A stretch of DNA of 20,640 bases, from positions 1 to 20,640 of IMG/VR virus record IMGVR_UViG_3300021962_000801; one strand, given 5' to 3'. The stretch is from a virus. A model generated the notes under the pieces. That model had not been told where the DNA came from and searched no databases. It was given only the letters and a program-made list of their open reading frames with translations. The translations under genes were made by a program, and so were the position numbers. Within the stretch, counting starts at the first letter, position 1, and each line of letters opens with the position of its first letter. This document shows, in pieces, positions 14,565 through 20,640 of this stretch.

Positions 14565-15788
14565 ATGGCACAACCAACTAACACTTTTGACAGCTATGAT
14601 GCTGTCGGTATCAGAGAGGATCTCTCAGATATCATCTATGACGTATCTCCAGAAGATACGCCGTTTTACTCTAAATCAAAAAAAGTAAAGGCATCTAACA
14701 CTTATCATGAGTGGCAAACAGACGCTCTTCGTTCTTCAGCAGCTAACGCACACGTTGAAGGCGACGAGATTACCGCTAACGCTCGTACCGCAACTACCAG
14801 ACAAGGTAACTACACTCAAATCTTCGTTGATGCAGTGTCAGTTCCAGATACAGACTCAGGTCTGAAAAAAGCTGGTCGTGCATCTGAGATTGCTTATCAA
14901 ATGCTCAAAACTGCTAAAGAGCAGAAACTTGACATTGAGAAGGCTCTCTTTGACAACAACGCTCGCGTTGCTGGTAACAGCTCAACTGCTCGTGAACTTG
15001 CTGGCGCTCCAACTTGGTTGATCACCAACACTGTTTTTGGTGACAACGAAGGTGCTGACGCTACTGGTGACGGAACGGATGCTCGTACTGATGAGACAAC
15101 CACTCTTACCGCATTCAACCAAACTGACTTTGACACTGTCATGCAGTCAATTTGGGAGCAAGGCGGCAAGCCAAACACTGTTTATCTCTCAGCATTCCAG
15201 ATGAACAAAGCTCTTGCCTTCACCGGCATGAACAACCAGCGTTCAACGATTGGTGCATCAGTTGGTGGAACAAATGCTGTTATCAAGGCAGTTGATGTTT
15301 ATGTAACGCCTAAACAAACCCCTTGGGCCCTTGCAGCGTAAGTTGCTATGGATAATCGCGTGAATTGCTGGGAAGCTAAGTTGAAAAATAAGCCAATCAG
15401 CAGCCAAGCGTCACAGGGATGTGACGAAGGTTCAGAGACTAGGACACGGAGACTAGAACAGTCAGTAAAGTCCCACGAGTGCGCGACAACCTACATGGTT
15501 GAAGATATAGTCCGATACTCATCAGAAATGATGAGAGGTAAAGATAAAGAACTTTGCCATAACGAAATGTGGGGAACAGTAGACTTCATGCCATCTCGTG
15601 AGAACCGTTCTCGTGACGTGTTTATCATGCAAGATGATATGTGGTCAGTTGCAGTTCTACGTCCTACAAAGAACATGGAACTTGCTAAAACTTCTGACTC
15701 AACTCGACGCGCAATCGTTACTGAGCTTACTCTCGTATGTAACAACGAGAAAGCATCAGGCGGTGTGTTCGACAACACAGTATCTTAA
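14565..15788 (+). CDS. Major capsid protein (SU10/DUF5309-like), interrupted by a group I intron; join 14565-15311, 15570-15788
   Basis: The coat protein forms the icosahedral shell. Exon 1 encodes 249 residues beginning MAQPTNTFDSYDAVGIREDLSDIIYDVSPEDTPFY, with WQTDALRSSAANAHVEGDE and the WLITN stretch typical of SU10-like (DUF5309) coat proteins. Read without splicing, it stops at a TAA (15339-15341) right after VDVYVTPKQTPWALAA. Joining base 15311 to 15570 gives VDVYVTP-WGTVDFMPSRENRSRDVFIMQDDMW. This restores the family pattern VYVxDFGTxxxxPxRxxRxRDVF and yields 321 residues, ending KASGGVFDNTVS. Both exons keep frame (747 and 219 bases with stop). Codon use favours GCT, CGT and AAC, fitting high expression. 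A strong terminator follows 8 bases after the stop. Confidence 0.9.
15312..15569 (+). ncRNA. Group I self-splicing intron (IA-like, 258 nt) in the capsid gene
   Basis: The helices can be paired by eye. P1: exon GCCT (15308-15311) plus AA with TTGGGC (15323-15328), giving U.G at the splice site. P2: 15333-15337/15342-15346 with a GTAA loop. P3: 15359-15362/15474-15477. P4: 15366-15370/15398-15402. P5: 15375-15377/15391-15393. P6a: 15409-15415/15420-15426 with a GGGA loop. P7: GACTA 15437-15441/TAGTC 15508-15512. P7.1: GGAC 15442-15445/GTCC 15470-15473. P7.2: GACT 15451-15454/AGTC 15460-15463. P8: CAACC/GGTTG 15487-15501. P9: 15518-15524/15529-15535 with a GAAA loop. P9.1: 15537-15543/15552-15558. 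P10: CCCC 15319-15322 with exon GGGG 15571-15574. Conserved P, Q, R and S boxes are present, including AAGATATAGTCC. The intron ends in G (15569). P7.1/P7.2 indicate subgroup IA. No intronic endonuclease gene. Confidence 0.93.
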
Positions 15789-18135: not shown

Positions 18136-18513
18136 TTGGCTGATCCAGTAGCTAGACGTAATTCTCGCTATAAAAGCGTGTATGGAATTACGTTTCGTCA
18201 ATACGTTGAAATCGCGTTCAGGCAAGGTAATAAATGCTTGATATGTGGCGTTGACGGCAAGCAAACTGAGAGAGAAAAATTATCAGTTGATCACTGCCAC
18301 TATTATGGTGAAATACGGGGATTGCTTTGCCAGAAATGTAACACTGGGCTTGGGCTATTTGATGACAATCCAGAGGCTATAATCAAGGCAGCAAAGTATT
18401 TGAAAAGATTCAATAGAAAAATAAAGCTCTCAAGGGCTGTAAAGAGAATTTATTATTTTATTGTTAAACTCTCATGGTCGATATTTCCTACTTATTGGAG
18501 GCTTAAAAAATGA
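18136..18513 (+). CDS. Endonuclease VII-type HNH nuclease (125 aa)
   Basis: This recombination endonuclease VII-type protein (T4 gp49 fold) is either a junction-resolving or a site-specific nicking enzyme. Zinc ligands Cys34/Cys37 (CLIC) and Cys65/Cys68 (CQKC) frame the HNH-like active site: Asp52-His53 in SVDHCH and Asn69 after the last cysteine, followed by the family signature RGLLCQKCNTGLGLFDDNPE. An in-frame TAA lies directly before TTG 18136, and there is no internal ATG, so a TTG start (MADPVARRNS) is the simplest choice. The C-terminal 30 residues ([20 protein letters not shown]) are hydrophobic and basic beyond the usual domain. It could also be a free-standing homing endonuclease. 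Confidence 0.85.
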   Translation: MADPVARRNSRYKSVYGITFRQYVEIAFRQGNKCLICGVDGKQTEREKLSVDHCHYYGEIRGLLCQKCNTGLGLFDDNPEAIIKAAKYLKRFNRKIKLSRAVKRIYYFIVKLSWSIFPTYWRLKK

Positions 18514-18763: not shown

Positions 18764-18785
18764 CCAAAATATGGAGGCTAAACAA

Positions 18786-19043
18786 GTGAATCGAGAGTGC
18801 GTATATCTTGAATGGGTTGACGCTGTAGCTGACTCAGGCTGGGAAGAAACTAAGAAACCAGAGCTTCATGATTGCTACACTCTCGGATTCATTGTTGCCG
18901 AGGATGACAAAGCAATATGCGTTGCATCCGCCATATCCAAAAAAGAATCAAACGCCAAGATTCATATCCCAAAGGCTTGGATCGTAAAGGAAGTTAGATT
19001 CAGTCCAGAATCCATAAAAAAAGCCCCAAAACGCGGGGCTTGA
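18786..19043 (+). CDS. Conserved small phage protein (85 aa), GTG start
   Basis: I prefer GTG 18786, 8 bases after GGAGG (18773-18777), giving VNRECVYLEWVDAVADSGWEETKKPELHDCYTLGFIVAEDDKAICVASAISKKESNAKIHIPKAWI. Upstream ATGs at 18771 and 18726 would overlap the Shine-Dalgarno sequence or the previous gene. The D..Y.LGFIV.E.D..I.VA.....E.N.K.HIPKAWI pattern is a recurring short phage protein; function unknown. Its last codons (KAPKRGA) lie within the minus-strand terminator hairpin. It is the last gene of the plus-strand block. Confidence 0.75.
   Translation: MNRECVYLEWVDAVADSGWEETKKPELHDCYTLGFIVAEDDKAICVASAISKKESNAKIHIPKAWIVKEVRFSPESIKKAPKRGA
19016..19041 (-). terminator. Rho-independent terminator of the minus-strand operon
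   Basis: Read on the minus strand, AAGCCCC (19041-19035) pairs with GGGGCTT (19027-19021) around a GCGTTTT loop, and the stem is followed by a run of T (complement of the A-run 19016-19022). On the plus strand there is no T-run, so it serves the leftward genes, whose last stop codon is at 19062. Confidence 0.8.
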
Positions 19044-19061: not shown

Positions 19062-19280
19062 TTAACCGAGTGAATTAAATGCCTCATACACTCGATCTAC
19101 TGAATCATAGCCATATTTCTTAGCCAAGGCAAGCGCCTCAGTAGCTGTATATAATTTCCCGTCAATAAACGTAAATAGAGGCTCACCAGCGCGTTCTTTG
19201 CCAATAGCAACCATGTAGTAAGGCCCAAACTTTATGTGCTTTATACGCTTCTTAAATTTGCGTAAATTGATGCTTGTCAT
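19062..19280 (-). CDS. Small protein of unknown function (72 aa)
   Basis: This is the last gene of the minus-strand operon. The 72 residues are MTSINLRKFKKRIKHIKFGPYYMVAIGKERAGEPLFTFIDGKLYTATEALALAKKYGYDSVDRVYEAFNSLG. The basic N-terminus is followed by a two-strand segment and a helix-loop-helix with aromatic residues. No family is recognised. Its ATG overlaps the stop of the HTH gene (ATGA), implying coupled translation, and the operon terminator lies just beyond its stop. Confidence 0.6.
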   Translation of the reverse strand: MTSINLRKFKKRIKHIKFGPYYMVAIGKERAGEPLFTFIDGKLYTATEALALAKKYGYDSVDRVYEAFNSLG

Positions 19281-19555
19281 TTAATAGATAAATACAACAA
19301 AAACAAAAACAACAAGGAACATACAATGGCCAATATTCCAAAGACGTTAATCTTGTTAAATGCCTCGCTCTGATTGGCCTCTGCAAACACTTTTTCTATT
19401 TCTTGCATTATTTTATCGTTAGGGATAGAGCGCCCGTTTTCCCATTTGCTAATGGTCTTGTAATGAATATCCAATGCATCAGCTAATTCCTTCTGAGTGA
19501 TCCCTAGCTTTTCCCTGTTTTCCTTCAAATATGCAGAAATATTGTCATGTTTCAT
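19277..19555 (-). CDS. XRE-type helix-turn-helix protein with C-terminal membrane anchor (92 aa)
   Basis: The chosen start is ATG 19555, preceded on the minus strand by AAGGAGA with about 7 bases spacing; an upstream ATG at 19597 would give 14 extra residues and lacks that site. Residues 4-58 are a classic Cro/C1-type HTH (ISAYLKENREKLGITQKELADALDIHYKTISKWENGRSIPNDKIMQEIEKVF), with the recognition helix near 31-40. Residues 70-91 (INVFGILAIVCSLLFLFLLYLSI) are one strong transmembrane helix. A membrane-tethered DNA-binding regulator or membrane-localised DNA anchor is inferred. It overlaps the nuclease gene by 11 bases and the next gene by 4. Confidence 0.85.
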   Translation of the reverse strand: MKHDNISAYLKENREKLGITQKELADALDIHYKTISKWENGRSIPNDKIMQEIEKVFAEANQSEAFNKINVFGILAIVCSLLFLFLLYLSIK

Positions 19556-19940
19556 GCGCCATCTCCTTAGTAAAATTCTCGACTTGGCACTGAGCATCTT
19601 CGTTGCCTCGGCATACTATAACACTTTGATTAATAGATTTTAAATAATTGTGCCATTCTAGCTGGCTTGCAGACACGCTACCACCACTTTTTTTCTTCAT
19701 TTCAATCCAAAGTAGCCACTCCGGTACGAACAGGTCTGGGACTCCGGGAGTTACGCCCTCGGCCTTGAGACGTGCGGCGGTTACGATGTTTCTTTGGCCT
19801 CCGTTTGGTATCGCTATTATCTTGGCTTTGTAGGTCTTGCGAAACCAGCTTACAAACTCCCGTTGCTCAACGTGTTCACTTCGCCCATTTTCGTTGAACG
19901 ACTTTGTAATACTTGCCTTCCCTCTTGTAGAAAATCTCAT
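19545..19940 (-). CDS. VRR-NUC domain nuclease (131 aa)
   Basis: This stand-alone VRR-NUC (PD-(D/E)xK-fold) nuclease belongs to a family of structure-specific DNA nucleases. Motifs in order: EHVEQREFVSWF (Glu25-Gln26), IPNGGQRN (44-51), ARLKAEGVTPGVPDLF (Asp69), WLLWIEMKKKSGG (Glu80-x-Lys82) and SQLEWHNYL (Gln93). The only in-frame start codon is ATG 19940, which makes a 65-base overlap with the 3' end of the helicase gene; no strong ribosome-binding site is seen, so coupling to helicase translation is likely. Its place after a helicase gene suggests joint action in DNA replication, recombination or host DNA processing. Confidence 0.85.
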   Translation of the reverse strand: MRFSTRGKASITKSFNENGRSEHVEQREFVSWFRKTYKAKIIAIPNGGQRNIVTAARLKAEGVTPGVPDLFVPEWLLWIEMKKKSGGSVSASQLEWHNYLKSINQSVIVCRGNEDAQCQVENFTKEMAHET

Positions 19941-20640
19941 TTGGCGGCTTGCCCTTATTCATAATGTAGCAGATATCCTCCAAATTGCTTGTATTCAGAA
20001 ACTTCACATCAATCTCTGATTTGATGGCTATGCTTGCCAACTTACTTACTGCCATGTTCCCGGCGTATCCTTCGTGCTGGATGGGGAAATATTCTGCAAT
20101 GATAGGATCGGCCAGTATTTTAGAGTAATACTGCACCTTAACCATATCTCTGCCACTGGTTCTCGACCTATGCTTAGACCACTGCCAATCAAGAACAGAG
20201 AATCCGTCGTTGTTGTGGCCCATGATATCTATGTCATGAAGCCTCATGCGCTTCTCTTTCGTCTGAGGGAACTCGTATCCGCAGTCTGGGCATACTTTGA
20301 CGGCTGGGGCCACTAAACTATCACACTCAGGGCAAACCTTTACTGGAGCCTCTCCAGTGCCTTTACCGGGCTTATTCGGCGGCTCCACTCTGGTTATCGG
20401 GCCATGCATTTGGACTACGCCAGCAAAGTCTAAAACTAGGCAATGATCGGTATGGCTCTTGTTACGCATACCGCGCCCAGCCATTTGGACGTACAGGCCC
20501 GGAGACATCGTTGGGCGTAGCATTGCTATAAGATCAATGTCTGGATAGTCAAATCCAGTAGTTAATACGTTGGCGTTGGTTAGCGCCCGTATCTTGCCAG
20601 CCTTGAACTCGCTAATAATGCGTTCACGTTCTGGCTTTAT
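19876..20640 (-). CDS. Superfamily 2 DNA helicase, C-terminal part (partial, runs off the right edge)
   Basis: The reading frame is open from the window edge (codon at 20640-20638) and gives 254 residues. It begins IKPERERIISEFKAGKIRALTNANVLTTGFDYPDID, which contains helicase motif V, then LIAMLRPTMSPGLYVQMAGRGMR, motif VI with the arginine finger. A four-cysteine zinc ribbon follows (CPECDSLVAPAVKVCPDCGYEF), then a C-terminal region with WSKHRSRTSGRDMVKVQYY. The order matches RecG/UvsW/DEAD-type phage helicases with a C-terminal zinc ribbon. The ATP-binding motifs (I and II) lie outside the window. An internal ATG at 20523 is not the start. It is the first visible gene of the minus-strand operon. 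Confidence 0.88.
   Translation of the reverse strand: MKPERERIISEFKAGKIRALTNANVLTTGFDYPDIDLIAMLRPTMSPGLYVQMAGRGMRNKSHTDHCLVLDFAGVVQMHGPITRVEPPNKPGKGTGEAPVKVCPECDSLVAPAVKVCPDCGYEFPQTKEKRMRLHDIDIMGHNNDGFSVLDWQWSKHRSRTSGRDMVKVQYYSKILADPIIAEYFPIQHEGYAGNMAVSKLASIAIKSEIDVKFLNTSNLEDICYIMNKGKPPNEIFYKREGKYYKVVQRKWAK

Follow-up and report, generated by a model that had tools for sequence, protein, structure and literature searches.

Cro/C1-type control proteins of phages are usually regarded as soluble. The gene considered here, from a 20,640-base virus record analysed over its whole length (the window), encodes a 92-residue protein in which a Cro/C1-type helix-turn-helix (HTH) is joined, almost certainly, to a C-terminal transmembrane-like (TM) segment. 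What a phage would use such a protein for, here called HTH-TM, is the question raised by the locus, whose features are as follows.

18771..19043, plus strand: convergent small gene of unknown function adjoining the operon end, start codon inferred (ORF list)
19021..19041, minus strand: terminator-like hairpin and T run at the end of the minus-strand operon (weak alone, position fits)
19062..19280, minus strand: conserved 72-aa protein, overlapping the HTH-TM stop (ATGA) (ORF; profile search)
19277..19555, minus strand: HTH-TM protein, 92 aa (P0001), allele group A (ORF and homologues)
19289..19345, minus strand: predicted C-terminal transmembrane segment, residues 71–89 (hydropathy, naive insertion score, model helix 47–91)
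19385..19528, minus strand: Cro/C1-type HTH domain, residues 10–57 (HTH_3 58.1 bits, AlphaFold model, Foldseek)
19545..19940, minus strand: VRR-NUC nuclease (phrog_824), with an 11-base overlap with the HTH-TM start (profile matches)
19563..19567, minus strand: ribosome-binding site AGGAG, 7 nt before the ATG (sequence and relatives)
19876..20640, minus strand: C-terminal part of a RadD/ResIII-like helicase, cut by the window end (profile matches)

Gene structure and operon context

The HTH-TM reading frame runs on the minus strand of the window from an ATG to a TGA. The ATG at 19555 is favoured over a longer, 106-aa reading because TAAGGAGATG lies upstream, and upstream sites like it are present in several HTH-TM relatives. 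The operon order in the window is helicase, VRR-NUC, HTH-TM and 72-aa protein, HTH-TM and the 72-aa gene sharing 4 bases; the two genes overlap in the other allele groups as well (six groups, A to F, were named in this analysis). The helicase is 531 aa at full length in L007, and neither Pfam, PHROGs, NCBIfam nor PADLOC gave a match to the 72-aa protein. Terminator-like sites numbered 2, against 2.1 expected in shuffles.

HTH-TM is the next-to-last gene of a recombination/replication operon, which in the close relative G001 includes upstream genes for a Sak4-like annealing protein, a DUF669/SSB-like protein and a Cas4-type exonuclease. This gene content suggests early expression. The shared operon with a helicase and a nuclease, proposed from the bare sequence, was borne out by the identification of the VRR-NUC and RadD/ResIII-like genes on the minus strand. 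The plus strand of the window carries structure and lysis genes. A group I intron lies within its major capsid protein gene (15284–15535, plus strand; Rfam RF00028, 90.2 bits) and is too short for the usual homing endonuclease; relatives have one group I intron elsewhere (L096 11488–11714) or two (L106 13381–13614 and 14285–14531).

HTH domain and fold

HTH_3 (PF01381) matched residues 10–57 with 58.1 bits, above its gathering score of 23, and was found in 15/15 aligned HTH-TM rows at E 0.1. The AlphaFold2 model, built on alignment A1, has helices at residues 2–17, 21–28 and 32–39 followed by a single long helix at 47–91, with a mean pLDDT of 82.5 (62 at residues 61–70, a weak joint, and 71 at residues 71–80). 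In a Foldseek search of the PDB, the three matches at E ≤0.001 were two chains of one designed DNA-binding protein and a chain of an EDF1–ribosome structure; P22 C2 and P2 C came next at E 0.013 each, and the values for P22 C2, P2 C, C.BclI and C.Esp1396I lay between 0.003 and 0.02. HTH-TM thus has the same HTH fold and size as these repressors and control proteins, which are soluble and sit at the promoters they control. By its HTH_3 score and CI-type fold it is a member of the Cro/C1 (XRE) superfamily, and DNA binding is predicted. The complete HTH and single C-terminal TM segment that the sequence-only reading placed in 92 residues are both supported, the segment as a prediction.

Among eight proteins scanned against PADLOC (representatives of HTH-TM groups A to F, the nuclease and the 72-aa protein), none gave a full-length match; the best score of the window HTH-TM was 34.2 bits across 52 positions of a 383-position model.

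Similar HTH folds also occur on proteins that contact cellular machines, and HTH-TM might act on a host machine rather than on DNA, as RodZ does with MreB or EDF1/MBF1 on ribosomes; we consider this quite improbable. In its favour, the cytoplasmic HTH part of the membrane protein RodZ affects MreB localization (PMC6052060, PMC6946637). Further, EDF1/MBF1 provided the best natural PDB matches of the single HTH-TM sequence, P22 C2 being absent among the matches listed, and the EDF1–ribosome chain is among the three leading Foldseek matches. Swapping of a host-facing head would likewise produce divergence of the kind described below. However, a profile of 15 relatives ranked P22 C2 as the best natural match (E 6e-9) with EDF1 next (6e-7), and HTH_25, the RodZ-type model, reached 19.4 bits on the window protein, below its cut-off of 24.6 and far from the 58.1 bits of HTH_3, and was present in 5/15 rows at E 0.1. 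RodZ is cellular and larger, with a periplasmic part. HTH-TM resembles it in combining an HTH, cytoplasmic in RodZ, with a TM helix, but has three residues past its segment and no periplasmic domain. By sequence it therefore falls outside the RodZ class, whose members would be expected to exceed the HTH_25 cut-off and to carry a periplasmic domain.

Predicted membrane anchor

The mean Kyte–Doolittle hydropathy of residues 71–89 is 2.85, a value attained in 3 of 20,000 random reorderings of these residues; the maxima of VRR-NUC, the 72-aa protein and HTH2 (a second HTH protein of these phages, described below) are only 0.25–0.94. A naive sum over an insertion scale came to −4.4 for this segment, and the best-scoring stretches of the same three proteins gave +8.9 to +13.8. 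The region preceding the segment has a maximum of 0.55 among 24 distinct HTH-TM homologues, which indicates a single TM segment, and the C-terminus lies three residues past it, giving a C-tail-anchored layout. HTH-TM is accordingly placed in the C-tail-anchored class, with one segment near the C-terminus and none earlier; membrane insertion and location are predicted from hydropathy and the structure model. The HTH head would lie in the cytoplasm.

Dimerization through a C-terminal helix is frequent in short HTH proteins, and on that general knowledge HTH-TM could be a soluble protein with its hydrophobic helix packed in a dimer core. This is very improbable, as a 19-residue segment of Kyte–Doolittle 2.11–3.05 is kept in all complete copies and there is little other protein in which to bury it.

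Membrane-anchored HTH proteins are already known in cells, RodZ being one. ArnR and ArnR1 of Sulfolobus acidocaldarius have, according to PMC6396743, an N-terminal HTH and C-terminal TM anchoring, the layout predicted for HTH-TM; unlike HTH-TM they are cellular and combine two TM segments with HAMP and sensor domains. No phage family with the HTH-TM architecture was found described in the portions of the open-access literature available to us, including PMC9519451, PMC6316719, PMC7996906 and PMC6396743.

Occurrence and conservation

A nuclease scan took in 80 of 189 loci, of which 48 with nuclease identity of at least 66 % (L005, L011–L057) form the close set. A complete HTH-TM gene lies directly behind the nuclease in 46/48 of these contigs; in the other two the contig end truncates the gene (L022) or lies 7 bases past the nuclease match (L048). 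All 46 complete copies (24 distinct proteins of 92–115 aa) terminate in a hydrophobic segment with Kyte–Doolittle values of 2.11–3.05, situated 2–10 residues from the C-terminus, while identity to the window protein is as low as 26 % in the 15-row alignment. Homologues without a conserved segment had been named at the outset as evidence against an anchored protein, and none was seen among the 46.

Beyond the close set, the HTH-TM profile was unmatched in the 32 more distant nuclease loci (L058–L089; 0/32 at E 0.001), some of which end at the nuclease, as L059 does, or shortly past it. A six-frame search of helicase relatives in genome assemblies (L116–L119) likewise gave 0/4 profile matches, with 6/6 positive controls matched. 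In L116–L118 the nuclease is present and HTH-TM is missing, and a search of these three whole assemblies gave just two HTH-only matches, both in one assembly.

Scans with the HTH-TM protein, which used exact peptide patterns that distant homologues may escape, returned contigs of this phage group only (6/9, 27/28 and 12/15 loci) once chance and HTH-only matches were set aside. L008–L010 were rejected as chance matches to the TM segment, the L008 match being antisense to a long ORF and those of L009 and L010 sharing the same matched residues. In L157 and L170–L172 the HTH part alone matched, and a profile check showed no TM segment C-terminal to it. The premise of the sequence-only reading that phage HTH proteins are normally soluble also fits: in ten phage HTH matches, hand-picked among 118 and 403 matching records and including two that are nearly identical, eight lacked a TM segment, one (L125) had TM segments and one (L121) had no full ORF.

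These distributions bear on the possibility that HTH-TM tethers the DNA of its own phage to the membrane at the place of replication or recombination. The precedent is p16.7 of phi29, a phage membrane protein that organizes DNA replication (PMC4974454, PMC11476376, PMC4446434). Like p16.7, HTH-TM is phage-encoded and a predicted membrane protein with a (predicted) DNA-binding part; unlike p16.7, its anchor is C-terminal. Entries for p16.7 were absent from the best 60, 50 and 9 PDB matches of HTH-TM by profile, Foldseek and single sequence respectively. The p16.7 protein has an N-terminal anchor and a different fold, and serves protein-primed replication. The operon mates (Sak4-like annealing protein, DUF669/SSB-like protein, Cas4-type exonuclease, helicase and VRR-NUC) speak for such a role, but related nuclease and helicase loci do without HTH-TM.

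Phage group

The phages of this group are uncultured and most of their contigs are fragments; G004 and G005, at about 36.5 kb, are the longest relatives. Both appear about complete, since the ends of each are neighbours in another record: the ends of G004 in G005, where they overlap by about 140 bases, and the ends of G005 in G006. Neither integrase (PF00589) nor resolvase (PF00239) was matched in six records (0/6 each), of which G004 and G005 are about full length and the other four fragments; controls were positive in 14/14 and 11/14 genomes. HTH-TM is thus carried by phages without detected integration families, and the lysogeny module that would accompany a phage immunity repressor was not seen in these records. 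Judged by the portal, Octadecabacter Antarctic DB virus 2 is the nearest cultured phage, at 48.2 % identity over 98 %; it is described as a podovirus in PMC9239159. Alignment A1 was unmatched in this phage and in Sinorhizobium phage phiM5 (0/2); the 15 relatives used as positive control, picked as HTH-TM carriers, all matched.

The group also encodes HTH2, a second Cro/C1-like protein, which is soluble and 62–66 aa long (L097 8268–8465 and equivalents; HTH_3 25.2 bits, HTH_26 24.6 bits) and lies at the divergent early promoter, beside the primase-helicase gene. The first ORF of the operon (L097 7933–8217, minus strand, and equivalents; about 95 aa) has no Pfam or PHROGs match and contains HEACH, which we take to be a metallopeptidase-like motif. 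Outside the window, an iteron-like putative origin lies between the primase-helicase and small terminase genes (L094/G004, L093/G005, L102/G006 and L099/G007), with many genome-specific short repeats (ACGGATA; GGACA; GGGACAA; AGGACA/AGACA) and long palindromes.

Selection, divergence and exchange

Within allele groups HTH-TM is under purifying selection, as judged from dN/dS of about 0.04–0.20 over the gene in eight pairs. Between the window and L006 the ratio is 0.14 for the whole gene, with the HTH at 0.09 and the TM part at 0.21; between the window and L007 the HTH part alone gives 0.03 over 0.07, with changes too few to read.

Across groups, no other matched ORF is as dissimilar as HTH-TM. 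Its identity is 45.6 % for G010/G008 (lowest of 27 ORFs with a match) and 42.4 % for window/G012 (lowest of 18). The corresponding values are 95.8 and 88.9 % for the 72-aa neighbour, 86.2 and 87.7 % for VRR-NUC, and 90.6 and 64.8 % for the helicase. Since 9 ORFs of G010 and 12 of the window have no match, HTH-TM is not the sole variable gene. An endonuclease VII-like gene (window 18136–18513, plus strand) has the second-least similar matched counterpart in G010/G008 (50.4 %) and is possibly another exchanged gene. For L049/L033 the nuclease has a synonymous distance of 0.47 and the 72-aa gene one of 1.24, and that of HTH-TM is saturated.

DNA identity was profiled along eight pairs. In two A/B and two C/D pairs it is mostly 73–100 % over the 350 bases before HTH-TM, 25–68 % inside the gene and 74–96 % in the 72-aa gene. 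A D/F pair has only a mild dip over HTH-TM, the A/A pair and one E/E pair lack a clear one, and in the other E/E pair, L029/L046, HTH-TM is more alike than much of the flank. In trees of 23 rows, group C pairs with E for HTH-TM (98/97) and with D for the flanks, taken as nuclease plus 72-aa protein (95/87). The AU test rejected C+D for HTH-TM at p = 0.029, to be read loosely because C+D was chosen after the identities were known; C+E in the flanks (p 0.063) and C+D+F in HTH-TM (p 0.057) were non-significant. The conflict between the trees is of moderate strength.

HTH-TM appears to have been exchanged as a cassette between related phages, which would account most simply for the between-group divergence and the tree conflict; replacement would most simply have proceeded via homologous exchange at the conserved flanks. 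Fast evolution may instead account for the divergence.

That HTH-TM appears to move between phages on its own also argues against an organizer of replication. The putative iteron origins of G004 and G005 differ while their HTH parts are 97 % identical, which indicates that the HTH does not track the origin; for the same reason the iteron-like region after the primase was rejected as an HTH-TM target. The suggested role at the replication machinery is accordingly not supported in that form, given related cassettes without the gene (0/32 and 0/4) and its apparent exchange independently of the flanks, and is less likely than the reading preferred below.

Presumed base-reading positions and operator searches

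Residues 6–60 were surveyed in 25 rows (24 distinct). R14, Q21, L24, W38, E39, P45, E54 and F57 are invariant; we take Q21 to be the phosphate-contacting Gln17 of 434 repressor and R14/E39 to be its Arg10/Glu35 salt bridge. On this presumed correspondence, positions 32, 33 and 37 would be the base-reading glutamines 28, 29 and 33 of 434 repressor, and the spacing fits. They have 5, 4 and 7 states, and their combination differs in each of the six groups, single residues being partly common to groups (e.g. K33 in A and B). Non-reading positions are equally variable, with 9 states at position 48 and 6 at positions 12, 15 and 27, so the pattern is compatible with changed specificity and is not proof of it.

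Exact and near palindromes were sought in noncoding sequence and the divergent promoter region as candidate operators, and no operator was identified. Repeated dyads in 15 genomes, compared with shuffles, yielded nothing tied to the HTH-TM allele; the repeated G+C-rich dyads resemble terminators. Inverted repeats ACACTTTTTTTTA...TAAAAAGTGT lie upstream of early-type genes and overlap a −35-like TTGA box in G013 (L111, about 1549–1585) and G001 (about 2228–2270, operon orientation), followed in both by the common leader GCAAACGGAATTGGCCGA; G006 has a different repeat, TTGACACTTTTGTGTCA, with a similar leader. These A/T-rich palindromes were not assigned to HTH-TM, being alike in an A- and a B-allele genome despite differing reading residues.

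The same palindromes, which overlap promoter-like sequences, are among the observations that would suit a Cro-like autoregulator of phage early genes whose anchor tunes dose, timing or stability, as are the Cro/C1 fold, the small size and the early-type operon. This is unlikely, since beyond the likeness of the palindromes across alleles, HTH-TM is next to last in its operon and the separate HTH2 is already positioned at the divergent promoter.

Proposed function

Any function assigned to HTH-TM is tentative. The reading we prefer, as the most probable of those considered while still far from secure, is a tail-anchored Cro/C1-type DNA-binding protein at the inner membrane with a swappable target. 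It would be produced together with the phage recombination and replication proteins; its HTH would face the cytoplasm, dimerize and bind a specific DNA site, and the anchor would keep this activity at the inner membrane. If HTH-TM is indeed exchanged on its own, its decisive target would hardly be a site fixed elsewhere in the same phage genome, because moving the gene alone would break such a pair. Exchange thus favours targets needing no matching phage change, namely host DNA, competing-phage DNA or a site in the exchanged piece. Most likely the target would be DNA of related phages entering the cell, with HTH-TM as an immunity or exclusion factor, or a host site; the membrane would be a good place to meet entering DNA. 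Autoregulation via a site within the exchanged segment would fit as well.

The swappable-target reading draws on HTH_3 in 15/15 rows and the profile match to P22 C2 (E 6e-9), the TM segment in 46/46 copies, purifying selection within groups, and the position of HTH-TM as least similar matched ORF with an identity drop between its flanks and a conflicting tree. Group-specific combinations at positions 32, 33 and 37 on an invariant scaffold point the same way. Against it, the operator scans of 15 genomes gave no allele-linked site, two AU tests were non-significant, other positions are as variable, the dip in the D/F pair is slight and pairs within a group lack a clear one, other genes vary too, and fast evolution is possible. 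The best natural single-sequence PDB matches are moreover to EDF1/MBF1, an HTH seen on ribosomes, and the soluble HTH2 already occupies the divergent early promoter. Nor would immunity be of evident use to a phage in which integration genes were not detected.

A more specific form, which we regard as rather unlikely, is a membrane-tethered immunity factor of a non-lysogenic phage that binds entering DNA of same-allele phages and blocks superinfection. Specificity would reside in the HTH, and alleles would be swapped among similar phages like the immunity regions of temperate phages. In our judgement the swappable target ranks above the replication tether, followed by the autoregulator and, last of the four, a head docking on a host machine.

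A phage group that keeps a Cro/C1 head on a predicted membrane anchor would provide a way to ask whether DNA is recognized, held or regulated at its point of entry. The apparent exchange of HTH-TM between relatives would offer a handle on whether non-lysogenic phages have immunity types: related phages keep the layout and seem to swap the gene, much as though it were a marker of phage identity.
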